Assembly: GCF_001522585.2 (NCBI RefSeq)
Contig: NZ_CP013372.1
Span: 2,232,001 to 2,296,000, forward strand
From: Burkholderia sp. NRF60-BP8
GTDB taxonomy: Bacteria; Pseudomonadota; Gammaproteobacteria; Burkholderiales; Burkholderiaceae
DNA: 64,000 bases
Direction: 5' to 3'
Positions 11,372 to 48,000 of the stretch are shown here, piece by piece (position 1 is the first letter of the stretch; each line of letters opens with the position of its first letter). The notes under the pieces are model-generated. The model worked only from the letters and a program-made list of their open reading frames with translations, ran no database searches and was not told the DNA's origin. The position numbers and the translations under genes are program-made.

Positions 11372-14300
11372 ATGAACAAGATATACAAGATCATATGGTC
11401 CCACGTCTCATCCGGATGGGTGGTCGTGTCGGAAGGGGCAAAACAGCGAGGCAAGACCGCTTCGACCAAGGAAGCACCGCAGCTGAGCAGGGAATTTCAT
11501 CACGCGGTTCGGGCCGGCAGACTGGGCATCGTCCCACTACTGCTTCTTTCCGCATTCTCCCCGAGCGTATTTGCCCAGCAAATTCCGACGGTGATTTCAG
11601 GATTAATTCAAACCAACAGCTTCAACAGCAATTCGTACATAGCGGCTTACCAGCTCATCGCCAACAGCGATAACCAAACCCAGGGCCTTCCCGAGGGCGT
11701 TTTGTTAAGTGGATTCGGAACCGGAACGACGATCCGAAACTACTTTTATGGGTATACCGACTTAAACGGACTCACCCATACAATTATCGGCGACAGTACC
11801 GGGGATACCGGCAACAATTCGCTTTTCCAGGTAAATGCGGGGCGTATTCAGATCGGGAATGGGGCGAGCGCTGGCCCGAGTTCATCTATCGCGATCGGCG
11901 CCAATGCCACGGCGTCGGTTAGCTCTGGCATAGCGCTCGGCACCAATGCCTCGGCATCGGCTAATTCCGGCGATGTTGCCCTTGGGTCGGGATCGGTTAC
12001 AGGCGCGACAAATCCGACCGCTAGCGTAACAATTGGATCCACGACCTATGGCGGTTTCGCTGGCACCAATCCGACGAGCGTCGTCAGTGTCGGTAAGGGC
12101 GGATCCGAGCGCCAGATTACTAATGTCGCCGCGGGGAGAATCACAGCGACAAGTACAGACGCAATCAACGGCAGTCAACTTTACTCGCTTGCCAGCACTA
12201 CAACTAGTTCAATTACTTCGCTGTCCTCCGGTCTGAGCTCCGCCAATAGTAACGTCTCGTCGTTGTCGACGGGCCTGAGCTCGACCAGCAGCAATGTTTC
12301 GTCGCTGTCGACCGGACTTAGTTCCATCAACAGCAACGTCTCGTCGTTGTCGAGCGGTCTGAGCTCGACCAACAGCAATGTCTCGTCGCTATCGACTGGC
12401 CTGAGCTCCACCAACAGCAACGTCTCGTCGTTGTCGACCGGCCTGAGCTCGACCAACAGCAATGTTTCGTCACTGTCGACTGGCCTGAGCTCCACCAACA
12501 GCAACGTCTCATCGCTGTCGACCGGTCTGAGCTCGACCAACAGAAACGTCTCGTCGCTGTCGACCGGTCTGAGCTCGACTAACAGCAACGTCTCGTCGTT
12601 GTCGACCGGTTTGAGCTCCACTAACAGCAATGTCTCGTCGTTGTCGTCGGGGCTAAGCTCCACCAACAGCAATGTTTCGTCGCTGTCGACCGGCCTGAGT
12701 TCCACCAACAGCAACGTCTCGTCGCTGTCGACAAGCCTGATCTCCACCAACAGCAATGTTTCGTCGCTGTCGACCGGCCTGAGCTCGACTAACAGCAACG
12801 TCTCGTCATTGTCGACGGGTCTGAGCTCCACCAACAGCAACGTCTCGTCATTGTCGACGGGTCTGAGCTCCACCAACAGCAACGTCTCATCGCTGTCGAC
12901 CGGTCTGAGCTCGACCAACAGCAATGTTTCGTCACTGTCGACCGGTTTGAGCTCGACCAACAGCAATGTTTCGTCGCTATCGACCGGTCTGAGCTCGACC
13001 AACAGTAATGTTTCGTCACTGTCGACCGGTCTGAGCTCCACTAACAGCAACGTTTCGTCGCTGTCCTCCGGTCTGAGCTCGACCAACAGCAACGTCTCGT
13101 CGCTGTCGACGGGCCTGAGCTCGACCAACAGCAATGTTTCATCGCTGTCGACCGGACTGAGCTCCACCAACAGCAACGTCTCGTCGCTGTCGACCGGTCT
13201 GAGTTCCACCAACAGCAACGTCTCGTCGTTGTCGACCGGTCTGAGCTCTACCAACAGTAATGTTTCGTCACTGTCGACCGGCCTGAGCTCGACCAACAGC
13301 AATGTCTCGTCGCTATCCTCCGGACTGAGCTCTACCAACAGCAACGTCTCGTCGCTGTCGACCGGTCTGAGTTCCACCAACAGCAACGTCTCGTCGTTGT
13401 CGACCGGCCTGAGCTCCACCAACAGCAATGTCTCGTCGCTGTCGACCGGACTGAGTTCCACCAACAGCAACGTCTCGTCGTTGTCGACCGGACTGAGCTC
13501 GACCAACAGCAATGTTTCGTCGCTGTCCACCGGTTTGAGCTCGACGAACAGCAATGTTTCATCGTTGTCGACCGGACTGAGCTCGACCAACAGCAATGTT
13601 TCGTCGCTGTCCTCCGGACTGAGCTCCACGAACAGCAACGTCTCGTCGCTGTCGACGGGCCTGAGCTCGACCAACAGCAATGTCTCGTCGCTGTCGACCG
13701 GACTGAGTTCCACCAACAGCAATGTTTCGTCGCTGTCCTCCGGCCTGAGCTCGACCAACAGCAACGTCTCGTCGTTGTCGACCGGTCTGAGCTCGACCAA
13801 CAGCAATGTTTCGTCGTTGTCGACCGGTCTGAGCTCGACCAACAGCAATGTTTCGTCGCTGTCCACCGGCCTGAGCTCAACCAACAGCAACGTCTCGTCG
13901 CTGTCGACCGGCCTGAGTTCCACCAACAGCAACGTCTCGTCGTTGTCGACCGGACTGAGTTCCACCGACAGCAACGTCTCGTCGTTGTCGACCGGACTGA
14001 GCTCGACCAACAGCAATGTTTCGTCGCTGTCCACCGGTTTGAGCTCGACGAACAGCAATGTTTCATCGCTGTCGACTGGCCTGAGCTCCACCAACAGCAA
14101 CGTCTCATCGCTGTCGACCGGTCTGAGCTCGACCAACAGCAACGTCTCGTCGCTGTCCTCCGGTCTGAGCTCAACCAACAGCAACGTCTCGTCGTTGTCG
14201 ACCGGTCTGAGCTCCACCAACAGCAACGTCTCGTCGCTGTCCACCAGCCTGAGCTCGACCAACAGCAATGTCTCGTCGCTGTCCACCGGCCTGAGCTCCA

Positions 14301-33669: not shown

Positions 33670-34809
33670 TCAGCCGTCGCACGCCGCGCCGCATTGCGCG
33701 AGCGAATTCTCCCTGCTGCGAAATACCAGCGGCTGTTCGTCGCGCGGCGCGCGACGCCGCGCGAACTGCACGGCCTGTTCGATCCGGTCGTGATGCGCGG
33801 ACTTCGCGCACACCGGATCGGCCTCTTTCGGGTCGCCGGTCAGCAGGTAAGCCTGGCACCGGCAACCGCCATGATCCGCATGACGCTCGTCGCACGTACG
33901 GCACGGCTCGCTCATCCAGTCTTCGCCGCGAAACGCGTTGAACGCATCGCTGTCGTACCAGATCTCCCGCAGCGACCGGTCGCGCACGTTCGGCAGCGCG
34001 AGCCCCGGCAGCGACCGCGCGGCATGACACGGCAGCGCGGTGCCGTCCGGCGCGACGCCGAGGAACACCGAGCCCCAGCCGTTCATGCAGGCCTTCGGGC
34101 GGCGCTCGAAATAGTCGGGCACGACGAACAGGATCTTGCAGCGCTCGCCGATCAGCTTGCGATAGCGGTTGACCGTTTCCTCGGCCTCGCGCACCTGCTC
34201 GACGGTCGGCATCAGTTGGTCGCGATTGAGCATCGCCCAGCCGTAATACTGCGTGTTTGCCAGTTCCAGGTAATCGGCGCCAAGATCGAGCGCCATCTCG
34301 ATGATCTGCCCCACGTGCGGCAGGTTGTAGCGATGCAGCACGCAGTTGAGCACCATCGGGTAGCCGTGCGCCTTGATCAGCCGCGCCACGTCGCGCTTCA
34401 GCCCGAACGTGCGCGTGCTGGTCAGGAAGTCGTTCAGCTCGCGCGTCGAATCCTGCAGCGACAACTGGATGTGGTCGAGCCCGGCGGCCTTGAGCCGTTC
34501 GATGCGCGCGACGTTCAGCCCGATGCCCGACGTGATCAGGTTCGTATAGAAGCCAAGGCCGCGCGCATGCGCGACGAGCGTCTCGAGGTCGCCGCGCTGC
34601 AGCGGCTCGCCGCCCGAGAAGCCGATTTGCGCGGCGCCGAGCGCGCGCGCATCGCCGATGACCGTGCGCCACGTGTCGGTGTCGAGTTCCGCGCCGTGCG
34701 TCGCGAAATCGACCGGGTTGTAGCAGAACGCGCAGTGCAGCGGGCAGCGATACGTGAGTTCCGCGAGCAGCCACAGCGGCGCGGACGGACGGGGCGTGTC
34801 GGGCGTCAT
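33670..34809 (-). CDS. pqqE: PqqA peptide cyclase (radical SAM)
   Basis: Radical SAM enzyme that forms the carbon-carbon bond between Glu16 and Tyr20 of PqqA, the first step of PQQ synthesis. It is 379 residues. The AdoMet cluster motif CxxxCxxC appears as CPLHCAFC near the N-terminus, the glycine-rich GGEPLQRGD follows, and the C-terminal SPASM region has cysteines in ACMNGWG, LPCHAA, CRTCDERHADHGGCRCQAY and DPVCAKS. The start at 34809 is 1 base from the pqqD stop. It is last of pqqABCDE; no pqqF protease gene lies in the window. Confidence 0.97.
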   Translation of the reverse strand: MTPDTPRPSAPLWLLAELTYRCPLHCAFCYNPVDFATHGAELDTDTWRTVIGDARALGAAQIGFSGGEPLQRGDLETLVAHARGLGFYTNLITSGIGLNVARIERLKAAGLDHIQLSLQDSTRELNDFLTSTRTFGLKRDVARLIKAHGYPMVLNCVLHRYNLPHVGQIIEMALDLGADYLELANTQYYGWAMLNRDQLMPTVEQVREAEETVNRYRKLIGERCKILFVVPDYFERRPKACMNGWGSVFLGVAPDGTALPCHAARSLPGLALPNVRDRSLREIWYDSDAFNAFRGEDWMSEPCRTCDERHADHGGCRCQAYLLTGDPKEADPVCAKSAHHDRIEQAVQFARRRAPRDEQPLVFRSRENSLAQCGAACDG

Positions 34810-34810
34810 G

Positions 34811-35092
34811 TCAGTCCAACCAGCCGCGCAGTCGCGCATGATCGAGGAAACGGTAGACGTCGGTCGCGAGATCCGATTGCATGAACAGGCGCTCGAGCTC
34901 GCCGATGATGTCGTCCAGTTCGCGCGTACCGTCGCAGCGCGCGAGAATCTCGCCCGCGCTCGGATTGAGCTTGACCATCCCCTCCGGATAGAGGAGCACG
35001 TACGCATCCTGGGCCGCCTCCCATTGCAGGCGGTACATGCCCCTGAGGCAGGGGCGCAGCGGCACGCCGCTGGCGGCTTCGATCGCGTTCAT
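34811..35092 (-). CDS. pqqD: PqqA-binding chaperone
   Basis: A 93-residue peptide chaperone (RiPP recognition element) that binds PqqA and presents it to PqqE. Family features are [35 protein letters not shown] and [14 protein letters not shown]. It overlaps the pqqC stop by four bases (ATGA at 35089-35092) and ends 1 base before the pqqE start, so the three are translationally coupled. Confidence 0.97.
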
Positions 35093-35810: not shown

Positions 35811-36734
35811 TCAGACCTGGAATTGCATGCCGTCGTGCGCGACGTCGATGCCGTGCGCGCGCAGGTGCGCGTGTTCGACGGAATGCGGATCGAGAATCGG
35901 GTTCGTGTTGTTGATGTGCGTGAGCACCTTGCGCGTTCGCGCGGGCAGCAGGTCGAGCCAGTCGATCATGCCGGGCCGCCCGGCTTCCGCGCACTGCGCG
36001 AGATGCCCCATGTCGGCCGCGTGCTTGCCCGACAGGCCGAGGTCGATCATCTCGGTCCCGGTCCAGAACGTGCCGTCCACCAGCACGAGATCGGCGCCGT
36101 CCATTGCCGCGCGCACGTCGTCGGTGACCGACGCGAGCCCCGGCGCATAGAACGCACGCCGCCCGCTCGCGACGTCTTCGATCGACAGCGCGATGTTGTC
36201 GCCGGGCGCGGCCGCCGCACGCCGCGGCGAATACGGCGGCGGCTTGCTGTCGACGGCGATCGCGGTGAAACGGATCCCGCCCGCCGCCGGCACCGCGAAC
36301 GGCTCGCCGGGCACGATCGTATGCGCGGCGACGCCGCAGTAATGACCGAGCAGCGGCACGAGCGGCAAGCCGGTCGACAGGTCGTCCAGCACCGGCGCGC
36401 TCGCGTAGAGCGGCAGCGGCGTCGAGCGCTCGCGCAGCATCAGCAGGCCCGTCACGTGATCGATCTGCGCGTCGCACAGCACGACAGCGGCGATGCCGCT
36501 GTCGCGGATCGCGCGCGCCGGTTGCAGGTCCGGATCCGCGCGCAACTGGGAAAGAATGTCGGGCGACGCGTTGACGAGAACCCAGTCGACGCCGTCTTCG
36601 CTGACCGCGATCGACGACTGCGTGCGCGGCAGCACGTGACCGCTTCCGCCGCGCGCACGGCGGCAGTTCGCGCAATTGCAGTTCCATTGCGGCAGGCCGC
36701 CGCCGGCTCCCGAGCCGAGTATCTTGATCTTCAT
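35811..36734 (-). CDS. pqqB: PqqB, PQQ biosynthesis hydroxylase
   Basis: Metallo-beta-lactamase-fold iron enzyme that hydroxylates the tyrosine of the processed PqqA dipeptide. It is 307 residues. The start block is [20 protein letters not shown], with the structural zinc cysteines in CNCANC. The metal-binding region shows [10 protein letters not shown], a family variant of HxHxDH, and [23 protein letters not shown]. Length fits PqqB. It follows pqqA by 61 bases. Confidence 0.96.
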
Positions 36735-36795
36735 GGGCGTCAGTTCCCGAGGCCGCCCGCGCCGACCACGGCGAAACGGGCGGCACGCACGGCGA

Positions 36796-36870
36796 TCAGC
36801 GGTTGGCGATGTACATCGTGATTTCGAAGCCGAAGCGCAGGTCGGTGTAAGACGGTGTCGTCCATTGCAT
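36796..36870 (-). CDS. pqqA: PqqA precursor peptide
   Basis: A 24-residue peptide starting [16 protein letters not shown], the ribosomal precursor of PQQ. Glu16 and Tyr20, the residues crosslinked by PqqE, are at exactly the expected positions (FGFEITMY). A GGAGAC Shine-Dalgarno precedes ATG 36870. A sigma-54-type promoter lies 86-100 bases upstream (36956-36970). It is translated far more strongly than the enzymes in known systems; no attenuator hairpin was identified between pqqA and pqqB. Confidence 0.97.
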
Positions 36871-36955
36871 GGTGTGTCTCCTGTCGAGTTGATGAGTCGA
36901 TGTGTTGCCGGATGAGTCGAACGACCGCGGCAATCGAGCGGCCGGTTCCTCTTCA

Positions 36956-36970
36956 GCAAGGAGCGTGCCG
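36956..36970 (-). promoter_or_regulatory. Sigma-54 promoter for pqqABCDE
   Basis: On the minus strand the sequence is CGGCACGCTCCTTGC. It matches the -24/-12 consensus TGGCACG-N4-TTGC at every position except the first, with the obligatory GG-N10-GC spacing. It faces pqqA. Confidence 0.8.
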
Positions 36971-37108
36971 AAGCCACGCTGCGGCGGCGCGGCGACGGTA
37001 GACGGCCGTCGCCCGGGCATCGGGACGCGATCCTTACGAATAGCCGACACGATTCGCGCGAATGCGGTCCGCCACCCCGGCGGCGCGATGTCCGCGAGTG
37101 GTCAGGAG

Positions 37109-37146
37109 TGTTGAATCGTTGAACACCGGTGTTGCAACTTGACACA
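37109..37146. promoter_or_regulatory. Two TGT-N11-ACA dyads upstream of pqqA (putative activator sites)
   Basis: TGTTGAATCGTTGAACA (37109-37125) and TGTTGCAACTTGACACA (37130-37146) share the form TGTTG-N9-ACA. Centres are 21 bp apart, two helical turns, about 160 bp upstream of the sigma-54 promoter. Two matching sites are found at 43124-43172. Between and beside them are AACACCGGTGTT (37122-37133) and CACACCGGCTGTG (37143-37155), which may belong to the same binding region. Confidence 0.65.
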
Positions 37147-37185
37147 CCGGCTGTGACAGGTCGCGCACCGCGCGACGGCCGCGCG

Positions 37186-39216
<2,031 letters not shown>

Positions 39217-39526
39217 TGTCTCCTCCGGGGGATCCTTCCGGTCAACTGCCGGACTCTTTGCCGTCATTGCAAGCAAGCATCGGGCCACGCCGGCGCCCCG
39301 GATACGAATTGAAAGCCGGATGTAATAAATCGCACGGGCGCGGCGCGTGTCGCGTCGCGCGACGCGCCAAGCTTTCGTGATACCGCGATTTCCCGACGCG
39401 CGACTACCCGTGCGAATCCGGAGCTTCTTAGCTGGCGCGTTTCTGGCTTCATCGCGGGACCTATCCGGTCGCCGTGCGCGACCGAGTGACGGTTGCCGCC
39501 TCCGATTCCGCCGGAACCCTATCGAC
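39217..39526. other. Divergent intergenic region: regulator / aminopeptidase
   Basis: About 310 bases between two divergent genes. No -24/-12 element and no TGT-N11-ACA pair was noticed here, so the regulator is probably expressed from an ordinary promoter that I could not place. Confidence 0.35.
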
Positions 39527-40552
39527 ATGACGCATCGCCCGATTCCGTCCACGCCGTCGCCCGCGCCGCGGGCCTTGCCCGATACGCCGGTGTCGCCGAT
39601 GTCGGCGCCCGCGCCCGTGCGCCTACGCCTGCACCGCGACGCGCATTCGATCGCATTCGCCGTGGCCGGCGCCGCGCACGGCCATCCGGTCGTCGTGCTG
39701 CACGGCGGGCCCGGCAGCGGCAGCCACGCCGGTATCCTGAGGCTGTTCGATCTCGCCTGCGTGCGCGTCGTGCTCGTCGACCAGCGCGGCGCGGGCGCAT
39801 CCGCGCCACGCGGCGGCACGCGCCACAACAACACCGCGCAGTTGATCGCGGATCTGGAGGCGGTGCGCAAGCAGCTCGGCGTTGCACGCTGGGGCGTCGT
39901 CGGCGGATCGTGGGGCGCCGCGCTCGCACTCGCGTATGCGGGCACGCATCCGGAGCGGGTGACGGGCGTCGTGCTGCGCGGCCTGTTCCTGACGTCGCCC
40001 CGCGAAGTCCGCGGGCTCTTCACGACTTCCCGTTCGCGTGCGCCGCGCGAATGGCGACGCCTGCATGCAGCGGCCGGCGGCGGCCGGCCGGATCGCCTGC
40101 TGTCGCGCTGCGCGCAGCGGCTGCGCCACGGCGCGGGCGCGGGCGGGCAGCGCGCCGTGGCGCTCGCGTGGCGCGCGTACGAAAACGCCGTCCTCGCATC
40201 GGCACGCACGCGCCGCTCGCCCGTGCGCGCGATCCGCTCGGACCAGACCGTCGGCCGGCTGATCGACAAATACCGGATCCAGGCGCACTACCTGCAACAC
40301 GATTGCTGGCTCGGCGAGCGCCGCGTGCTCGCACTCGCGCGACGGGCCGCACAAGCCGGCGTGCCGCTGTTCGCCGCGCACGGGATGCGCGATCCCGTTT
40401 GCCCGGTCGACAACGTCGTGCGGCTCGCGCGAGCCGCTCCCGACGCGGAGATCGAATGCGTGAATGCCGGGCATCTGGCAAGCGAGCCTGCGTTGGCGCG
40501 CAGCGTCGCACGCGCCGTGCATGCGATGTTCGCGACGGCGCCGTTCGCGTGA
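39527..40552 (+). CDS. Proline iminopeptidase-like alpha/beta hydrolase
   Basis: A 341-residue S33-family alpha/beta hydrolase from ATG 39527 (ATG 39599 is also possible). Signature elements are VVVLHGGPGSGSHAG (oxyanion loop HGGPG), VLVDQRGAGAS, nucleophile Ser in GVVGGSWGAALALAYA, and His in CVNAGHLASEP. The order matches proline iminopeptidases. The cap region is Arg-rich and unusual (SRAPREWRRLHAA) compared with textbook enzymes, so peptide specificity is uncertain. It converges on the TonB receptor gene 54 bases away and is probably not part of the PQQ system. Confidence 0.82.
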   Translation: MTHRPIPSTPSPAPRALPDTPVSPMSAPAPVRLRLHRDAHSIAFAVAGAAHGHPVVVLHGGPGSGSHAGILRLFDLACVRVVLVDQRGAGASAPRGGTRHNNTAQLIADLEAVRKQLGVARWGVVGGSWGAALALAYAGTHPERVTGVVLRGLFLTSPREVRGLFTTSRSRAPREWRRLHAAAGGGRPDRLLSRCAQRLRHGAGAGGQRAVALAWRAYENAVLASARTRRSPVRAIRSDQTVGRLIDKYRIQAHYLQHDCWLGERRVLALARRAAQAGVPLFAAHGMRDPVCPVDNVVRLARAAPDAEIECVNAGHLASEPALARSVARAVHAMFATAPFA

Positions 40553-40606
40553 CGACTCCGCGCCCATTCGCGTCGTGACGCGATCACGCACGCGGCCGCG
40601 CACCGC

Positions 40607-42937
40607 TCAATCCCATGCATAGCGCACGCCGACCCACGCGCCGCGCGGCGCGCCCGGCCCGACGAACTGCTCGTTCACCGGATGGGCGCCGTCGAACGTG
40701 TGGTTCGGCCCGTTGAAGAAATTCTGGCCGAGCGCGCCGAAGCTTGCGTAGCGCTTGTCGAACAGGTTCGTCACGCTCGCGAACACCTCGAACCGCTTCG
40801 TGGCCCGGTAACGCATGTCGAGATCGACCAGCACGTAGCCCGCGATCCGGCCGTTCGCGTCGGCGTTGTTCTCGTCGCCGCGCGCGTACACGTCGCTGCG
40901 CCACGTGACGTTCGCGCCGACGTCCCACGCGCGCGTCGCCGCGTAGTCGAGCCGCAGCTTCACCGTATGCGCCGGAATGCCGGGCACGCGGTCGCCCGGC
41001 TTGACCGTCACGTTGCCGTTCGCGTCGGCCGCCGAGTTCGCGGGGCTGTGTTCGGTCCACGACGACCGGTAGGTCGCGTCGACATGGCTGTACGACAGCC
41101 CGACACCGAGCGGACCGAACCGCGTGCGGCCGGTGAGCTCGACACCCTGCCGCCGCGTGTCGCCGACGTTGCGGAAATAGCCCTGCGCGCTGACCGGGCT
41201 GCTGATGAAGTGAATGTCGTCGGTCAGCGTCGTGCGGTAGGCGGCGGCGCTCCAGGTCGTCGCCGCGCCGATGCGGCCGCGCACGCCGGCTTCGAACGTC
41301 TTCGAGATCACGGGCTTGAGCGCCGGGTCGGCGATGAAATCGTTCGGCAGCGAACACGGTGCGGCCGGATCCGCGCATGCAAGCTCGATCGCGGTCGGCG
41401 AACGCATGCCTTCGTTGTAGGCCGCATACGCGGTGAAACCCGCGTCCGGGTTCCAGTCGACCCCGACGGCCGGGTTGAAGCGGGAGAACACTTGGTTGCC
41501 GTCGAGCAGCGGCTGCACGCCGCTCTCGTCGCCGATCCGTGCGTTCGACCAGTCGTAGCGGCCCGACAGCGTCAGCGTCCAGTGCGGCGTCAGCGACAAC
41601 GCATCGCTCAGGTACGCGCCGACATTCGCGTTGCGCGTCTTCGCGCGGGTCTGCCGGACGAAATCGCCGATGCCGATCGCCGCGCGCGCGTCGGTGAAAG
41701 ACGCGTCCTGCGACGACGCGACGTAGCTCGAGTTCGCGATATCGGCCGACACGCCCGCGACCAGTTGATTCTCCATCCCGCCGAGCTTGCCGAGCAGCGT
41801 GAGCTGCACGCTGCCGCCGTAGCTGTCGGTGACGATCGTCGATTGCGCGTTGCGGCCCTGCACCGTGTCGACCGTCCCGTCCTCGTCTACCGATCCGTAG
41901 TCCGTATTGTTGTTGCTGCTCGTATTGGCGTTGCGCAGGTGCCGGTAGTACGCATTGCCGCTCAACTCGACGTGCTCGCCGAAAAAGCGGTCGCCCGACA
42001 GCGTCAGGTAGCCGGCGCCGTTGCGGTTGCGGTCCGGATACGTATACGCCTGCTTCGGGTTGCCGAGGAACGAGCGCGGGATCGTCTGGGTGCCGGACAG
42101 CGTGTTGTCCGCGCCGCCTGCGGCGATCGACAGCGTCGTGTCCGCATCGGTGTAGCGCAGCTTGCCGAACGCCTGCCTCACGCGGCTCGCGTTGTGGTCG
42201 GCCCAGCCGCCTTCGTTCGCGACGTTCGCGCTCGCGTAGTAGTCGAGGTTCGGGCCGATCGTCCCGCCCTGCTCGATGCCCGCGGTCTTGCGGCCCCACG
42301 CGCCGCCCGACACCTCCGCTTCGCCGCCCGGGTTCGAGCGGCCGTTCTTCGTCGCGATCGCGAGCGCACCCCCGAGCGTATTGCGGCCGTACACCGGGTT
42401 GGAGCCCGGAATCAGCTGCACGCGGTCGATCGCCTGCATGGGCAGGATGTCCCAGTTCACGACATCGCCGAACGGCTCGTTCACGCGCACGCCGTCGACG
42501 AACACCGACAAGCCCTGCGGCGTGCCGAGCAGCGGCGACGCAGTGAAGCCGCGATAGTTGACGTCCGTCTGGTACGGGTTGCCCTGCGCGTCCGAGATCG
42601 TCACGCTCTGCAGGTTCGCGGCGAAGAAATCGGCGAGCGTCGCGCGGTGCTGCACGTCGATCTCGGCCGCCCGCACCGTCTGCACGTTCGCCGGCACCTT
42701 CGACAGCGGCATGCCGATCCCGAGCAGCGGCGTCGTGCCGACGACGACCACCGCGGGCAGCACGACGGTCGAGGCGGACAGCGCGACCGCGGCGCCATCC
42801 GCCTGCTGCTGCGCGCGCACGCTGCCGGGCGGCAGGCCGAACAGCGCCAGCGCGCCGACGGTCGTGCCGACGCATCGCACACGCCGGCCACGCCGCGTCA
42901 CGCCGTCGCGCCCGGCTGCCTTTGGTCTTCTGATCAT
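40607..42937 (-). CDS. TonB-dependent outer-membrane receptor (possible PQQ or lanthanide receptor)
   Basis: A 776-residue TonB-dependent receptor. Signal peptide to about residue 43 (SVRA), a TonB box near VVLPAVVVVGTTPL, a plug with FRGF-like YRGFTASPLLGTPQGLSVFV and VNEPFGDVVNWDILP, then GSNPVYGRNTLGGALAI, and a 22-strand barrel ending GAWVGVRYAWD. The block TASPLLGTPQG is one I associate with the receptor group that includes LutH, implicated in lanthanide uptake, as well as other members. It is divergent from the PQQ dehydrogenase and has its own -24/-12 promoter. Candidate cargo: a lanthanide complex or PQQ itself; sequence alone cannot tell. Confidence 0.88.
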   Translation of the reverse strand: MIRRPKAAGRDGVTRRGRRVRCVGTTVGALALFGLPPGSVRAQQQADGAAVALSASTVVLPAVVVVGTTPLLGIGMPLSKVPANVQTVRAAEIDVQHRATLADFFAANLQSVTISDAQGNPYQTDVNYRGFTASPLLGTPQGLSVFVDGVRVNEPFGDVVNWDILPMQAIDRVQLIPGSNPVYGRNTLGGALAIATKNGRSNPGGEAEVSGGAWGRKTAGIEQGGTIGPNLDYYASANVANEGGWADHNASRVRQAFGKLRYTDADTTLSIAAGGADNTLSGTQTIPRSFLGNPKQAYTYPDRNRNGAGYLTLSGDRFFGEHVELSGNAYYRHLRNANTSSNNNTDYGSVDEDGTVDTVQGRNAQSTIVTDSYGGSVQLTLLGKLGGMENQLVAGVSADIANSSYVASSQDASFTDARAAIGIGDFVRQTRAKTRNANVGAYLSDALSLTPHWTLTLSGRYDWSNARIGDESGVQPLLDGNQVFSRFNPAVGVDWNPDAGFTAYAAYNEGMRSPTAIELACADPAAPCSLPNDFIADPALKPVISKTFEAGVRGRIGAATTWSAAAYRTTLTDDIHFISSPVSAQGYFRNVGDTRRQGVELTGRTRFGPLGVGLSYSHVDATYRSSWTEHSPANSAADANGNVTVKPGDRVPGIPAHTVKLRLDYAATRAWDVGANVTWRSDVYARGDENNADANGRIAGYVLVDLDMRYRATKRFEVFASVTNLFDKRYASFGALGQNFFNGPNHTFDGAHPVNEQFVGPGAPRGAWVGVRYAWD

Positions 42938-43013
42938 TTTCGTTGTCTCCGCACGTGCATTGCGCCGGCCCGTGCGATGCACCGCGCGGCGACGGGTGTC
43001 GCGAAGCCGGCGT

Positions 43014-43028
43014 GCGAGAACCGTGCCA
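43014..43028 (-). promoter_or_regulatory. Sigma-54 promoter for the TonB-dependent receptor
   Basis: On the minus strand: TGGCACGGTTCTCGC. The -24 element TGGCACG is perfect and the GG-N10-GC spacing is exact; the -12 reads TCGC rather than TTGC. The ATG of the receptor is about 80 bases downstream. Confidence 0.7.
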
Positions 43029-43123
43029 GCGCCCCGAGCAAGAGCGGCGCGCACTGCCCCGCACATCGCGTCGGACCGGCATGCGCGCGACTGACGGCCC
43101 GCTGTTCCGCGAACTGCGTCACC

Positions 43124-43172
43124 TGTCATGTTTGGCAACACTTCGCGCACGACGGTGTACCTGAATGCAACA
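43124..43172. promoter_or_regulatory. Two TGT-N11-ACA dyads between divergent sigma-54 promoters
   Basis: TGTCATGTTTGGCAACA (43124-43140) and TGTACCTGAATGCAACA (43156-43172), centres 32 bp apart (three helical turns). Read on the other strand they are TGTTGCC-N7-ACA and TGTTGCA-N7-ACA, like the pair upstream of pqqA. They lie almost midway between the receptor promoter and the dehydrogenase promoter, as expected for shared activator sites. Confidence 0.65.
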
Positions 43173-43260
43173 CCTTCGCCGGGCCGATGGCGCGATGCGT
43201 CGCTCGACGCCCCACCTGCGATGCGCCGGTGTGCCGCGCCGCGCCGGCTTCCGGCCGCGA

Positions 43261-43275
43261 TGGCATGCGACTTGC
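43261..43275 (+). promoter_or_regulatory. Sigma-54 promoter for the PQQ dehydrogenase operon
   Basis: TGGCATGCGACTTGC: -24 TGGCATG (one mismatch to TGGCACG) and perfect -12 TTGC with GG-N10-GC spacing. The expected start of transcription is about 43287, some 80 bases before the dehydrogenase ATG. Confidence 0.78.
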
Positions 43276-43367
43276 GTGACGGGCAGTGCACTCGGCCCGG
43301 AACCCCAACCGTGCCGGCGCGACGAATCGTTCGCGGCGGTGCGACCACAATGACCCAGGAGACAACC

Positions 43368-45089
43368 ATGAAGAAACTCTCGGCTTCAGCGCGCCGGCTG
43401 GCGACGATCGGCATCGCGGTGGCAGCCGCCGTCGCGCTGAACCCCGGCCTCGTCGAAGCGGCCGCGGACTACCCGGCCGTGACCTACCAGCGCCTGACCG
43501 ATGCACACGGCGACCCGGGCTGGCTGACCTACTACCGCACCTACGACGGCCGCTCGCATTCGCCGCTCAAGCAGATCGACACGTCGAACGCGAAGGATCT
43601 CAAGCAGGTGTGGGCGTACAAATTCCCCGCCGACCTGAAGCAGGGCTTCGAGGCCACGCCGATCGTCAACGGCAACTACCTGTTCGTGACGACGCCGAAG
43701 GACAACGTCTACGCGTTCGATGCGAAGACCGGCAAGCAGCTGTGGAAATACGAGCCGAAGCTCGGCGCCGCATCCTTCAAGACCGCGTGCTGCGACGTCG
43801 TCAACCGCGGCGTCGCGCTGTACGGCAAGAACGTCTACATCGCGATGCTGAACGGCGAAATCGCGGCGCTCGACGCGCAGAGCGGCAATCTCGTGTGGAA
43901 GAAGCAGATGTTCGAGCCGGGCCTCGGCTACGCGTTCTCGCTGGCGCCGCTCGCGATCGACGGTGCGATCGTCGTCGGCACGTCCGGCGGCGAATACGGC
44001 ATTCGCGGCTACATCGCCGCGCTGAATCCGGAGGACGGCTCGCAGATCTGGAAACGCTACACGATCCCCGCCGCCGGCGAAAAGGGCGCGGAAACCTGGC
44101 CCGACGGCATGCAGAGCCATGGCGGCGGCGCAGCATGGCTCACCGGCACGTACGACGCCGCGTCGCGCACGCTGTACTGGGGTGTCGGCAACCCCGGCCC
44201 ATGGCTCGCGGCGCTGCGTCCCGGCGACAACCTGTATTCCGACTCGCTGCTCGCGCTCGATGCGAAGAGCGGCAACCTGAAGTGGCACTACCAGTACACG
44301 AACAACGACACGTGGGACTACGACGGCGTGAACGCGGCCGTCCTCGCGGACATCAAGTACAAGGGCAAGGACTACGACGCGATCATCCATGCCGACCGCA
44401 ACGGCTTCTTCCACGCGATCGACCGCACGACCGGCAAGCTGATCTACGCGACGCCGTTCGTGAAGGCGTTGTCGGTCACCGGCTACACGGCCGACGGCAA
44501 GCCGATCCAGGACGCGTCGAAGTTTCCGAAGGCCGGCACGACGATCGAAACGTGCCCGAGCTTCCTCGGCGGCAAGAACTGGTGGTCGATCTCGTACGAC
44601 CAGCAGCGCAACATCGCGGTCGTGCCCGCGCTGCACGCGTGCATGAGCCTGACCGGCAAGTCGGTCAGCTACATGGAAGGCCTGCCGTACCTCGGCGAAG
44701 GCTTCGAGATCAAGCCCGAGCCGGGCAGCGAAGGCTACGGAGAACTGACGGCCATCGACGTGAACACCGGCAAGAAGCTGTGGAGCCACTGGTCGAAGAA
44801 GCCGTGGAACGGCGGCGTCGCGACCACGGCGAGCGGCCTCGCGTTCAGCGGCTCGCTCGACGGCCACCTGTACGCGTTCGATACGGCGACCGGCAAGGTG
44901 CTGTGGGAAAGCCCGCAACTGGCGAGCGGCATCATTTCGCAGCCGTCGGTGTACGAGGTCGACGGCAAGGAGTATGTCGCCGTGCTCGCCGGCTACGGCG
45001 GCGCGAACCCGATCTGGGGCGGCCCGATGGCCGACATCGCGAAGGACGTTCCGCGCGGCGGCACGCTCTACGTGTTCGCGCTCGACTGA
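43368..45089 (+). CDS. PQQ-dependent alcohol dehydrogenase, lanthanide-type active site
   Basis: Periplasmic quinoprotein alcohol dehydrogenase, 573 residues with signal peptide to about residue 32. It forms an eight-bladed propeller with tryptophan docking repeats such as ALDAQSGNLVWKK and AFDAKTGKQLWKY. Active-site features: vicinal disulfide Cys141-Cys142, metal ligands Glu209 (GGEYGIRGY) and Asn275 (VGNPGPW), catalytic Asp317 and an Asp two residues later, Asp319 (NDTWDYDGV). This second Asp is the hallmark of lanthanide-dependent enzymes (XoxF, ExaF, PedH); calcium enzymes have Ala, Ser or Thr there. AGGAGA precedes ATG 43368. It is followed by its probable cytochrome partner and a HiPIP. 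Substrate (methanol, ethanol or other alcohol) is not determined. Confidence 0.93.
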   Translation: MKKLSASARRLATIGIAVAAAVALNPGLVEAAADYPAVTYQRLTDAHGDPGWLTYYRTYDGRSHSPLKQIDTSNAKDLKQVWAYKFPADLKQGFEATPIVNGNYLFVTTPKDNVYAFDAKTGKQLWKYEPKLGAASFKTACCDVVNRGVALYGKNVYIAMLNGEIAALDAQSGNLVWKKQMFEPGLGYAFSLAPLAIDGAIVVGTSGGEYGIRGYIAALNPEDGSQIWKRYTIPAAGEKGAETWPDGMQSHGGGAAWLTGTYDAASRTLYWGVGNPGPWLAALRPGDNLYSDSLLALDAKSGNLKWHYQYTNNDTWDYDGVNAAVLADIKYKGKDYDAIIHADRNGFFHAIDRTTGKLIYATPFVKALSVTGYTADGKPIQDASKFPKAGTTIETCPSFLGGKNWWSISYDQQRNIAVVPALHACMSLTGKSVSYMEGLPYLGEGFEIKPEPGSEGYGELTAIDVNTGKKLWSHWSKKPWNGGVATTASGLAFSGSLDGHLYAFDTATGKVLWESPQLASGIISQPSVYEVDGKEYVAVLAGYGGANPIWGGPMADIAKDVPRGGTLYVFALD

Positions 45090-45180
45090 ACCGGCGCCAC
45101 GCCCGAATCGCCCTCGAGTCGCGCCCGCATGCGCCCGATGCGGGCGCGACGCCCCACACGCTTGAACCGGATACACGACC

Positions 45181-46386
45181 ATGAATACTCGCCTCACTTC
45201 CGTTACCGTCGCCAGTCTGCTCGCCGTGGGCGTGGCGCTGACACCGGCAGCCGCGTCGGCCGACGTGCGCGTCTGCACGTTGCCCGGCAGCCCCACCACG
45301 GCGCTCGACCGCTCGGTTGCGCGCGAAGTGTTCCGCACCGCGGGCATCGCCGCGACCTTCAACAGCCGCGGCGTCGACGACAACGGCGACGACGACGGCA
45401 TCTCCGCGAGCGAGCTGACCAAATCGCTCGAACGCGACTGCGACGTGATCGCGGGCTTCCCGCGTTCGGCGATCGCCGATGCATCGGAATCCAAAATGAC
45501 GTTCTCGCGCGGCTATCTGCGCTCCGGCTACGTCAGCGTGTCGCTGCGCGACGCGCAAGCGCCGACCGGCGCGAAGGAAACGATCGCGGCCACGTACGGC
45601 AGCCCGTCGCAACTGATCGCCGCGCAGCAGGCGAACGCCCGCTTCGACCTCGAAAACACGAGCGAAAGGACGATCGGCGCGCTCGCCGCGGGCCGCGCGC
45701 AGCGTGCGATCGTCTGGTATCCGAGCGTCGTCGCCTACGAGCATGCGCACCCGCGACAACGGTTCAAGGTGGCGGCGACGTCGTCGCCGTACTCGGACTG
45801 GCAACTGTCGTTCGCATTCGGGCCGGGCAAGGACGCGCTGCAAAAACGCATCGACGCCACGCTGTCGCGGATGAGCGGCAACGGCCACCTCGCGTCGCTC
45901 ACGCGCGGCTGGACGCTTCCCGACGACATCGCGCAAGCCGCCGCCACGCCCGTGCGCGGCCGGTTTCTCGATGGCGCGATCGCGGCCGCTCGGCGGCCGG
46001 CAAAAAGCGGCTTCATCAAGGTTTCGACGAGCGAAGGCAGCGGCGTCCCGCCGTTCGACCAGGCGCAGGTGCAACACGGCAAGAAGCTCTATACCGATGC
46101 ATGCGCGAAATGCCACGGCGACCAGCTCGAGGGCAATACCGCCCCCGCGCTGAGCGGGGAATCGTTCGCGCCCGAGGGCAAGTCGCACATCACGGTCGGC
46201 GGCATCTTCCTGTACATGTCGAGCAACATGCCGGCCGATCGCCCCGGCAAGATGACCGCCCAGGAATACGAGGACCTGATGGCGTTCCTGCTGTACTCGA
46301 ACGGCTACGACGCGTCGAAGACCAAGCTGACCGCCGATATCGCCAACGCGTCGAAGGCGCCGCTCGTCGCCGGCCCGCGCAAGTAA
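45181..46386 (+). CDS. Fusion of quinoprotein-associated binding protein and cytochrome c (XoxJ-XoxG-like)
   Basis: A 401-residue periplasmic protein with signal peptide to about residue 27. Residues about 28-250 resemble the family 3 solute-binding proteins associated with quinoprotein dehydrogenases (XoxJ type): VRVCTLPGSPTTALDRSVAR, CDVIAGFPRSAI, SPYSDWQLSFAFGPGKD. Residues about 290-400 are a class I cytochrome c with haem motif CAKCH (308-312) and a candidate axial Met in LYMSSNMPADRPG. In methylotrophs these are separate genes xoxJ and xoxG next to xoxF. An acidic loop DDNGDDDGISASE at residues 66-78 resembles an EF-hand. It is 91 bases after the dehydrogenase and probably in the same transcript. 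Confidence 0.85.
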   Translation: MNTRLTSVTVASLLAVGVALTPAAASADVRVCTLPGSPTTALDRSVAREVFRTAGIAATFNSRGVDDNGDDDGISASELTKSLERDCDVIAGFPRSAIADASESKMTFSRGYLRSGYVSVSLRDAQAPTGAKETIAATYGSPSQLIAAQQANARFDLENTSERTIGALAAGRAQRAIVWYPSVVAYEHAHPRQRFKVAATSSPYSDWQLSFAFGPGKDALQKRIDATLSRMSGNGHLASLTRGWTLPDDIAQAAATPVRGRFLDGAIAAARRPAKSGFIKVSTSEGSGVPPFDQAQVQHGKKLYTDACAKCHGDQLEGNTAPALSGESFAPEGKSHITVGGIFLYMSSNMPADRPGKMTAQEYEDLMAFLLYSNGYDASKTKLTADIANASKAPLVAGPRK

Positions 46387-46483
46387 CTTCCCGCCCGCTT
46401 TCGTTTCGGTCGACCTTCGCGCCCGGCAGCATGCCCGGCGCGCGGGTCGGACTTTTTCTCGTCATTTCATTCAGGATAACATC

Positions 46484-46798
46484 ATGATCTCCCGCCATCG
46501 CAGAACCTTCATCGTGCAGGCCGCCGGCCTGTGCGCCGCGCTCGCGGCCGGCACGCGCGCATTCGCGGCCGCCCCGCCCGTCGACGAGAACGACGCCGCA
46601 GCGAAGACGCTCGGCTACCGCGCAAAGGCCACGGCCGTCGATACCGGCAAGTTCCCGAAGTATCAGGCCGGACAGACCTGTTCGAACTGCCGCTTCTACA
46701 AGGCCGCCGCGGGCGAATCCTTCGGTACGTGCCCGATGTTCGCGGGCAAGACGGTTGCCGCGGAAGGCTGGTGCAACGTCTACGCCAAGCTCGCTTGA
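46484..46798 (+). CDS. High-potential iron-sulfur protein (HiPIP)
   Basis: A 104-residue exported HiPIP. The N-terminus RHRRTFIVQAAG is a twin-arginine signal, as expected for a protein folded with its cluster before export. Four cysteines bind one 4Fe-4S cluster: CSNC, GTCPMF and GWCN. HiPIPs shuttle single electrons in the periplasm at high potential. Its position after a quinoprotein dehydrogenase and a cytochrome c suggests it takes electrons from the cytochrome domain towards the respiratory chain (inference). It lies about 97 bases after the fusion gene. Confidence 0.92.
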   Translation: MISRHRRTFIVQAAGLCAALAAGTRAFAAAPPVDENDAAAKTLGYRAKATAVDTGKFPKYQAGQTCSNCRFYKAAAGESFGTCPMFAGKTVAAEGWCNVYAKLA

Positions 46799-46929
46799 CG
46801 CCGGACCCGCTCGCGAGCGCGAAGGCGCGTTCCCCGACGGCGCGGCATGCAGGCGGCCCGCATCGCTTTCGCCATCGACATTTTAATTAGTCGTACGTAT
46901 TACAACACTCAAAAAAACGGAGACAGACG

Positions 46930-48000
46930 ATGAAGAGCAGGACATGGACGATTTGCGCGGCGCTGCTCGGCGCGGCGGCAAGCCCGAACGGTTTCGCGCA
47001 GAGCAGCGTCACGCTGTACGGCGACCTCGACGCCGCGTTGCTCTATACGAACCGATCGCTCGATTCGGCAACCGGCGGCAACGCCGGCCGCCAGTTCGCG
47101 CTGACCGATACGGGCATGACGCCGACCAACTTCGGCATCACGGGCATCGAGGATCTCGGCGGCGGGCTGCACGCGAGATTCAAGCTGGAAAGCGGCTTCA
47201 ACGTCACGGACGGCGCGTTCGGCCATTCGAACGGCAACTTCTTCGGCCGCCAGGCGTGGGTCGGAATCGACGGCGGCTTCGGCGAAACGAAGGTCGGCCT
47301 GCAGTTCTCGCCGTTCGTGCTCGCGATACTCGGATCGGATCCGCGCAACGTCTCGCACTTCGGCGCCGCGCTCGTGCCGTATGTCGACAACGTGCTCGTC
47401 ACGGGCCTCTTCAACCCGAACGCGATTTCGTACACGAGCCCCACGATCGCCGGGCTGACGGCCAGCGCGATGTTCGGTTTCGGCGGAAAGGCCGGCGACT
47501 TCCAGGCAGGACGCCAGTACTCCGGCAGCCTCACCTATACGAACGGCGGCTTCATGCTCAACGCGGCGCTCTACGACGGCAACGGCGGCACGTCGCCGAC
47601 GCCGGTGCCGAGCACGGTCGCGTTCGTCGGCCGCACGATCGGCACCGCCTATACGTTCGGGCCGGTGACCGGCAAGGCGTCGTTCACGCGCTACAAGGTC
47701 GCCGGCTCGTTCAGCAACGACGTGTACAGCGCCGGCCTCGACTATCGCGTCACGCCGGCCCTCGACCTGAACACCGGCGCGTGGTACACGACCGACCGCA
47801 ACGATTCGCACAATCATTCGCTGCTTGCCGCGATCGGCGCCGACTACAGCCTGTCGAAACGAACGGGCCTGTACGCGCAGGTTGGCGTGGTCAACAACCA
47901 CGGTGCGATGAATACGGGCCTCGGCATCACGGGCGGCGCGTTGTACGGGTTGCCGGGCACGACGGTCGGCGTCAACGCCGGCATCCACCACGTGTTCTGA
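46930..48000 (+). CDS. Outer-membrane porin (Burkholderia OmpC-like)
   Basis: A 356-residue trimeric porin. Signal peptide to about residue 23 (GFA-QSSVTLYG). Family marks: YGDLDAALLY start, FGITGIEDLGGGLHARFKLE, FGRQAWVGIDGGFGETKVGL, and terminal GVNAGIHHVF with aromatic C-terminus. GGAGACAG precedes ATG 46930; a hairpin follows the stop. The region before it (46799-46929) includes an AT-rich TTTTAATTAG that may be its own promoter, so it may not belong to the dehydrogenase operon. Confidence 0.94.
   Translation: MKSRTWTICAALLGAAASPNGFAQSSVTLYGDLDAALLYTNRSLDSATGGNAGRQFALTDTGMTPTNFGITGIEDLGGGLHARFKLESGFNVTDGAFGHSNGNFFGRQAWVGIDGGFGETKVGLQFSPFVLAILGSDPRNVSHFGAALVPYVDNVLVTGLFNPNAISYTSPTIAGLTASAMFGFGGKAGDFQAGRQYSGSLTYTNGGFMLNAALYDGNGGTSPTPVPSTVAFVGRTIGTAYTFGPVTGKASFTRYKVAGSFSNDVYSAGLDYRVTPALDLNTGAWYTTDRNDSHNHSLLAAIGADYSLSKRTGLYAQVGVVNNHGAMNTGLGITGGALYGLPGTTVGVNAGIHHVF

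Follow-up and report, generated by a model that had tools for sequence, protein, structure and literature searches.

Several described systems come close, in the accessible parts of their sources, to the alcohol oxidation locus of Burkholderia sp. NRF60-BP8 that we analyse here. In Ralstonia solanacearum GMI1000, growth on ethanol requires rpoN1, and in the AcoR-exaC pair (Rsc3129/Rsc3128) the gene of the AcoR-type activator adjoins an alcohol oxidation gene predicted to be its sigma-54 target (PMC4676750). The ped/exa system of Pseudomonas, with the regulators AgmR/ErbR and PedS2-PedR2, joins pyrroloquinoline quinone (PQQ) dehydrogenases and a separate pqq operon in one circuit, and PedH is rare-earth-dependent (PMC12997753). 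NifA/FhlA-like activators, including alcohol regulators of Clostridiales, use TGT-N10-12-ACA operators with inverted halves and a fixed spacing (PMC6615313). The Burkholderia locus likewise has an AcoR-type activator next to predicted sigma-54 targets, and brings PQQ synthesis and a PQQ dehydrogenase together under what appears to be one circuit. It lies in a stretch of 64,000 nucleotides, hereafter the window (G000:C1:2232001-2296000), of a 7.08 Mb genome in three contigs. From the sequence we predict, with a probability of roughly 85%, that the activator switches on the pqq, dehydrogenase and receptor promoters through paired TGT-N11-ACA operators.

Conserved sigma-54 elements and paired operators

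The activator gene and, beyond it, the pqq cluster headed by pqqA lie on the minus strand. To the right of the regulator are a minus-strand TonB-dependent receptor gene and, divergent from it, a plus-strand quinoprotein dehydrogenase gene followed by a fusion gene and a gene for a high-potential iron-sulfur protein (HiPIP). A preliminary description of this DNA had reported three -24/-12 elements with GG-N10-GC spacing, and the sequence bears out all of its coordinates: the elements belong to pqqA (CGGCACGCTCCTTGC, 36956-36970, minus strand), the receptor (TGGCACGGTTCTCGC, 43014-43028, minus strand, conserved in alignment A2) and the dehydrogenase (TGGCATGCGACTTGC, 43261-43275, plus strand). 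They combine GG-N10-GC with a near match to the published consensus TGGCACG-N4-TTGC, as quoted in PMC4676750. Our sigma-54 score is our own weighting of that consensus, and its thresholds of 12 and 12.5 were set post hoc, after the first score table. By themselves the elements prove little, because six scoring at least 13 occur in the window where 3.2 are expected; conservation carries the argument.

Relatives were sampled as the best 80 of 554 confirmed regulator loci (L001-L080), which come from Burkholderia, Paraburkholderia, Caballeronia, Trinickia and one uncultured Ralstonia. Among these bacteria are the environmental laboratory strain Paraburkholderia xenovorans LB400 (L043), with regulator, pqqA and dehydrogenase, as well as Trinickia soli (L063) and Paraburkholderia tropica (L016), an environmental strain whose receptor gene is in the divergent position. 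We detected pqqA, with a peptide pattern of our own, in 68 of the 80 loci, and the dehydrogenase also in 68. Every one of the pqqA genes has an element scoring at least 12 within 200 base pairs (bp) (68/68, against 7.9% of random windows), and every one of the dehydrogenase genes has one scoring at least 12.5 within 450 bp (68/68, against 8.4%).

Four dyads of the form TGT-N11-ACA lie where the preliminary description had placed them, three with TGTTGC and one with TGTTGA. One pair belongs to pqqA, with TGTTGAATCGTTGAACA at 37109-37125 (plus strand; a conserved island in alignment A1) and, 21 bp from it, TGTTGCAACTTGACACA at 37130-37146 (plus strand). The other pair stands between the divergent receptor and dehydrogenase promoters, with TGTTGCCAAACATGACA at 43124-43140 and its partner TGTTGCATTCAGGTACA, 32 bp away, at 43156-43172 (both on the minus strand and in alignment A2). 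The distances from dyad to element are about 139 and 160 bp for pqqA, 96 and 128 bp for the receptor, and 89 and 121 bp for the dehydrogenase.

The loose pattern TGT-N11-ACA was rejected as evidence on its own, since its eight places in the window, against 5.65 expected from a first-order Markov model, amount to background. The strict pattern TGTTG-N9-ACA occurs four times in the window, against 0.58 expected, each time at these promoters. Genome-wide, 29 strand hits of the strict pattern against 26 for its reversal show no enrichment, and over-representation across the genome was rejected on that ground; a symmetric dyad with at most two mismatches gives 158 hits against 121 for its control. 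Background frequency genome-wide was one half of what the preliminary description had named as telling against its proposal. The other half, a lack of conservation in relatives, was not found, because dyads and -24/-12 elements alike are conserved in the same intergenic regions there. Enrichment near sigma-54 promoters, which it had suggested looking for, is present: 6 of the genome's 28 dyad places have a strong element (pattern YGGCAYGNNNNTTGC, 64 in all) no more than 300 bp away, where 0.11 pairs are expected, and none of 20,000 random placements reaches six dyads. Four of the six are the pqqA and dehydrogenase pairs and one is at exaC on contig C2; the last, at C1:2202389, was rejected as an operator because it overlaps its own -12 box. 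The receptor element, with TCGC in place of TTGC, is not in the list of 64.

Across L001-L080, the 52,360 bp upstream of the target genes contain 147 strict dyads and the remaining 1,589,284 bp contain 30, a roughly 149-fold difference in density that is not a probability because the loci are related. At least one strict dyad is found in 39 of 68 pqqA regions and 58 of 68 dehydrogenase regions. The spacing of adjacent TGT-N11-ACA sites is close to fixed: at pqqA, 25 of 26 such pairs are 20-22 bp apart, and at the dehydrogenase, 37 of 38 are 30-33 bp apart. Two dimers sharing one face of the helix would be expected at such distances, which correspond to about two and three helical turns.

In alignments of 17 chosen sequences each, inspected by eye, conservation ahead of the ribosome-binding region is concentrated in islands that mainly coincide with the dyads and -24/-12 elements. 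The pqqA alignment additionally shows a conserved inverted repeat in the leader (RCCGC-N9-GCGGT, 36923-36943, minus strand), a possible RNA hairpin. Its five pairs form in 20 of 20 aligned loci, a result equalled by 26 of 500 shuffles; the loop is 9 nucleotides in 15 loci and 10-14 in five, and a two-sided change occurs once (L079). An Rfam scan of 36500-47000 gave no match. The repeat suggests additional control at pqqA, which would suit a scheme in which other regulators, such as the LuxR-type AgmR and PedR2, are mainly in control and the dyads and elements are minor; in Pseudomonas putida, such regulators govern both the ped cluster and the pqq operon (PMC12997753). We regard this as very improbable, given that the dyads and -24/-12 elements are by eye the most conserved islands upstream.

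The regulator and its recognition helix

The gene that the preliminary description had called an AcoR-type activator, located between the target promoters, is indeed of that type. At 37186-39216 on the minus strand it encodes P0002, a protein of 676 residues with a GAF sensor domain, a PAS-like domain, an AAA+ sigma-54 interaction domain and a Fis-type helix-turn-helix that carries the recognition helix; PF01590, PF00158, PF25601 and PF02954 score over their cut-offs. The GAFTGA loop stands at residue 415 and is kept in 80 of 81 aligned sequences, with GAFSGA in one. No AcoR model appeared among the best 25 of 27 NCBIfam rows. Two sigma-54 genes are present in the genome (G000:C2:3013830 and C3:119383).

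The regulator travels with the dehydrogenase. Among 37 same-genus genomes, 22 have both genes (at least 87% identity for the regulator ortholog and 83% for the dehydrogenase), 14 have neither and one (G032, 82% complete) has the dehydrogenase only (Fisher P 2.5e-9, kinship ignored). A dyad and an element accompany pqqA in every one of the module's 23 same-genus clusters. Conversely, four genomes without a regulator ortholog (G001, G052, G054, G059) have a pqqA gene with neither dyad nor element. The pqqA gene of G037 has a single distant, weak element and no dyad, and pqqA was not found in G027.

The best sign that the regulator reads both promoters is that both change along with the protein. 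The recognition helix includes residue 657, for which 73 of 80 loci encode Asn; the other seven (six from Trinickia and one from a Paraburkholderia metagenome-assembled genome) encode Ala. Among regions of Asn657 loci that hold TGT-N11-ACA, the half-site TGTTGC occurs in 34 of 53 at pqqA and 57 of 60 at the dehydrogenase, and TGTCGC in none of either (0/53 and 0/60). Ala657 loci have TGTCGC in 7/7 pqqA and 6/7 dehydrogenase regions, with TGTTGC in 1/7 and 0/7. Counted per half, TGTTGC and TGTCGC number 115 and 0 of 342 with Asn657, and 1 and 24 of 44 with Ala657. What tracks the residue is the entire half-site and not position 4 alone.

Elements in 68/68 loci at each of two promoters, a fixed operator spacing, co-occurrence, four ortholog-less pqqA genes without sites and covariation at both promoters together support the single sigma-54 regulon of the preliminary description, with one amendment. 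The receptor, which it had included, is a frequent member and not a universal one. In the 27 loci with a usable receptor start (alignments beginning after residue 140 were excluded), an element scoring at least 12.5 is found in 22 and lacking in five, and TGT-N11-ACA is found in 19; receptor distances are rough, because the starts are extrapolated. In L065 the receptor gene is relocated beside pqqA and carries both element and dyad.

The regulator gene may be under the same type of control. A sigma-54-like element that the preliminary description did not have, TGGCCCGATGCTTGC at 39273-39287 (minus strand), lies 57 bp before its ATG. Of the 80 loci, 69 have an element scoring at least 12.5 in the 200 bp before the regulator, against 3.8% of random windows, and a TGGC..TTGC island is conserved there in a 27-sequence alignment. 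TGT-N11-ACA occurs within 260 bp of the regulator in only one of 27 (L033), where the dyads are those of the dehydrogenase. This pattern suggests that the regulator gene is probably itself sigma-54-dependent. Between its element and its start lies a second leader inverted repeat, TCCGG-N7-CCGGA (39237-39253, minus strand), and many relatives show, by eye, repeats of a similar kind.

We propose the following course of events. Sigma-54 polymerase would wait at the -24/-12 elements, and the activator would bind the paired dyads as two dimers facing the same side of the DNA. Effector binding by its GAF domain would make it oligomerize, and its GAFTGA loop and ATPase would then open the promoter complexes held by sigma-54. 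Analogy with AcoR-type regulators makes the alcohol or its aldehyde the likeliest effector. A single enhancer between the divergent receptor and dehydrogenase genes would serve both. The outcome would be a periplasmic alcohol-oxidizing system together with its cofactor and electron acceptors.

Several observations weigh against this reading. Strict dyads are absent from 29 of 68 pqqA regions and from 10 of 68 dehydrogenase regions. The two best weaker sites keep the usual spacing in 25 of those 29 and nine of those 10; these sites come from a matrix trained on strict sites, and their single scores are often reached by about 4% of random windows. The paired spacing is not kept at pqqA in L046, L064, L071 and L074 or at the dehydrogenase in L052. 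No TGT-N11-ACA at all is found at pqqA in eight loci and at the dehydrogenase in one, and pqqA was not found near the regulator in L026, L029, L035 and L036. Five receptor genes, all in Burkholderia (L012, L018, L019, L022, L025), have neither an element scoring 12.5 nor a dyad, and a nearby dyad is absent at the regulator's own element. The covariation, our strongest argument, rests on one event, because the Ala657 group has a single origin on the tree (Shimodaira-Hasegawa-like approximate likelihood ratio test support 98). C at position 4 occurs in 72 of 342 Asn halves, in the weaker half, and L069, with Ala657, also holds a TGTTGC half. G037, which by its labels belongs to another family, likewise has Ala at this position, and its dehydrogenase operator carries TGTCTC in either half; it adds little, because 3 of 60 dehydrogenase regions with Asn657 contain TGTCTC as well. 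L198 has Ala at 657, and no operator was found there. Finally, paralogs adjacent to exaC have recognition helices nearly identical to that of P0002.

This last point also bears on which protein does the activating. The sigma-54 promoters could be real and yet be served by another AcoR-type paralog, either one with 53% identity at C1:2109661 or that of exaC, while the neighbouring regulator controls something else. Other candidates do exist in the genome, where 19 scored matches of mixed quality point to several sigma-54 activators, AcoR-like or otherwise. In addition, the 53% paralog has a TGTTGC dyad upstream in this genome, and one of six other loci of that paralog (L109) has a similar one. 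However, the 53% paralog is present in genomes of the genus that have no dehydrogenase, whereas the ortholog of P0002 co-occurs with the dehydrogenase, and it is residue 657 of P0002 that tracks the operators. Activation by a paralog is therefore unlikely in our view, and we retain P0002 as the predicted activator.

exaC and distant relatives

The exaC gene of this genome (G000:C2:167274-168967) encodes a predicted acetaldehyde dehydrogenase (NF050026, 901.8 bits, cut-off 900) and has a strong sigma-54 element with TGT-N11-ACA dyads, one of them of the TGTTGC type. The same activator may thus serve exaC here, and the PQQ genes may have joined a general alcohol and aldehyde regulon with exaC as its older core. 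Consistent with this, a TGTTGC dyad is found at 5 of 30 exaC loci in the genus, the regulator being present in all five; the comparison covers 30 of 37 same-genus exaC genes. Eight of the relatives' loci (L053, L055, L056, L057, L060, L061, L066, L067) have a regulator paralog with 73-75% identity, divergent from exaC at about 310 bp, and in five of these eight a TGTTCC-N5-GGAACA palindrome lies at exaC. In place of the receptor, nine loci carry an exaC-like gene (71-72%) that diverges from the dehydrogenase gene and has both an element and a dyad. Yet the strong element is found at 30 of 30 exaC loci, with or without this regulator, and the common dyad there is TGTTC-type. Since the element is independent of the regulator, exaC is probably served by a related AcoR-type protein in most of these bacteria, and exaC was rejected as a sure member of the regulon; cross-talk is possible because the recognition helices are nearly alike. 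We consider an origin from an exaC core possible, if on the unlikely side.

A more distant arrangement is found in G039, whose regulator is 57% identical. There, exaC, a 40% identical dehydrogenase (with WDFDG) and pqqA each have a strong element and TGT-N11-ACA. So does an operon headed by a gene for cytochrome c-550 PedF (192 bits, cut-off 122), in which the next gene encodes a solute-binding protein with a MoxJ-like family match below cut-off. Other AcoR-type regulators (about 40% identical) lie near more distant PQQ dehydrogenases in L197, L198 and L199.

In L026, L029, L035 and L036, a perfect TGTTGC-N5-GCAACA palindrome stands behind the regulator (12046-12062, 12042-12058, 12111-12127 and 12063-12079, respectively). 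It is perhaps a relic.

Genes of the locus

The quinoprotein alcohol dehydrogenase P0001 (43368-45089, plus strand, 573 residues; TIGR03075, 562 bits, cut-off 480) has the extra aspartate two residues past the catalytic one, within WDYDG at residues 316-320, and WD[YF]DG is found in 68 of 68 loci. The aligned residue is D in 6zcw_A and S in 1flg_A; 6zcw is PedH, and the aspartate that marks lanthanide enzymes is essential according to a title in the references of PMC12997753. From this residue, P0001 is predicted to use rare earths. By score, two ethanol dehydrogenases (6zcw and 1flg) come nearer to it than XoxF methanol dehydrogenase, which was rejected as the closest type (323 bits to 6dam_A, against 424 to the quinoprotein ethanol dehydrogenase 6zcw_A).

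An apparent substrate-binding/cytochrome c fusion follows (45181-46386, plus strand), with domains at about residues 29-245 and 295-371. Its first domain is weakly MxaJ/XoxJ-like (MoxJ-like match of 21.9 bits, below cut-off), and a structure model (mean predicted local distance difference test score 68.7) and Foldseek support a solute-binding fold. The HiPIP gene comes next (46484-46798, plus strand; PF01355, 79 bits, cut-off 22). The three genes are closely consecutive and probably form one operon.

The receptor P0004 (40607-42937, minus strand, 776 residues) matches PF00593 and PF07715. A PDB sequence search returned eight weak matches to siderophore receptors, and the best 120 of 7931 homologs bear generic TonB or iron/siderophore receptor names. 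The alpha/beta hydrolase gene between regulator and receptor (39527-40552, plus strand) is not claimed for the regulon.

In the pqq cluster, all on the minus strand, pqqA (36796-36870; TIGR02107, 46.5 bits, cut-off 20) is the first gene and encodes a precursor of 24 residues. It is accompanied by pqqB (35811-36734; TIGR02108, 390 bits, cut-off 245) and the pqqE reading frame (33670-35007; TIGR02109, 525 bits, cut-off 381). The true start of pqqE probably lies further inside the frame, the family match beginning at residue 74.

Comparison with known systems

Three of the ingredients have separate precedents: TGT/ACA operators of sigma-54 activators, the pairing of AcoR with exaC, and joint regulation of pqq and dehydrogenase genes. 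Their combination at one locus appears to be new: in the open-access literature, searched by titles and abstract starts with subscription papers mostly outside its scope, we found no description of a sigma-54-controlled PQQ operon or lanthanide-type dehydrogenase, an absence that carries little weight. Outside methylotrophs and Pseudomonas, the regulation of lanthanide-type dehydrogenases is little known to us, and we found none described in the literature searched. The regulon supplies defined operators, a defined activator and a testable pair of residue and operator, and it offers a route to the ligand of the receptor and to the inducing signal.

Each of the closest systems differs from this one. 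In the AcoR-exaC pair of Ralstonia the target is an aldehyde dehydrogenase, and the accessible part of the source does not describe operators for PQQ, dehydrogenase or receptor genes (PMC4676750). Compared with the NifA/FhlA-like operators, those found here have N11, TGTTGC halves and a fixed pair spacing, and serve other targets in other lineages. A GAF-modulated sigma-54 regulator is drawn among MxaFI and XoxF methanol dehydrogenase genes in PMC11845868; the Figure 1 legend names four methylotrophs, leaves the host of the regulator unspecified and does not describe promoters or operators. The receptor PqqU lies beside pqq genes in four Burkholderiales genomes, and its authors hint at co-regulation in the accessible part of their paper (PMC12124388), whereas the present receptor scores 116 bits with the NCBIfam PqqU model against a cut-off of 1200.

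The Pseudomonas ped/exa circuit uses LuxR-type regulators, one of them in a two-component system, and P. putida is without a LutH homolog according to the accessible part of PMC12997753. Our broader proposal, which we hold tentatively and at slightly less than even odds, is that Burkholderiales have an all-sigma-54 circuit, in which the activator's own gene and those for PQQ synthesis, the dehydrogenase and the uptake receptor would all depend on sigma-54. The cell would then produce the cofactor, the enzyme and the means of metal or cofactor uptake only in the presence of the effector, and the operators would have co-evolved with a single residue in the activator's recognition helix. Such a circuit would stand beside LuxR-type and two-component control as another way of governing rare-earth alcohol oxidation.

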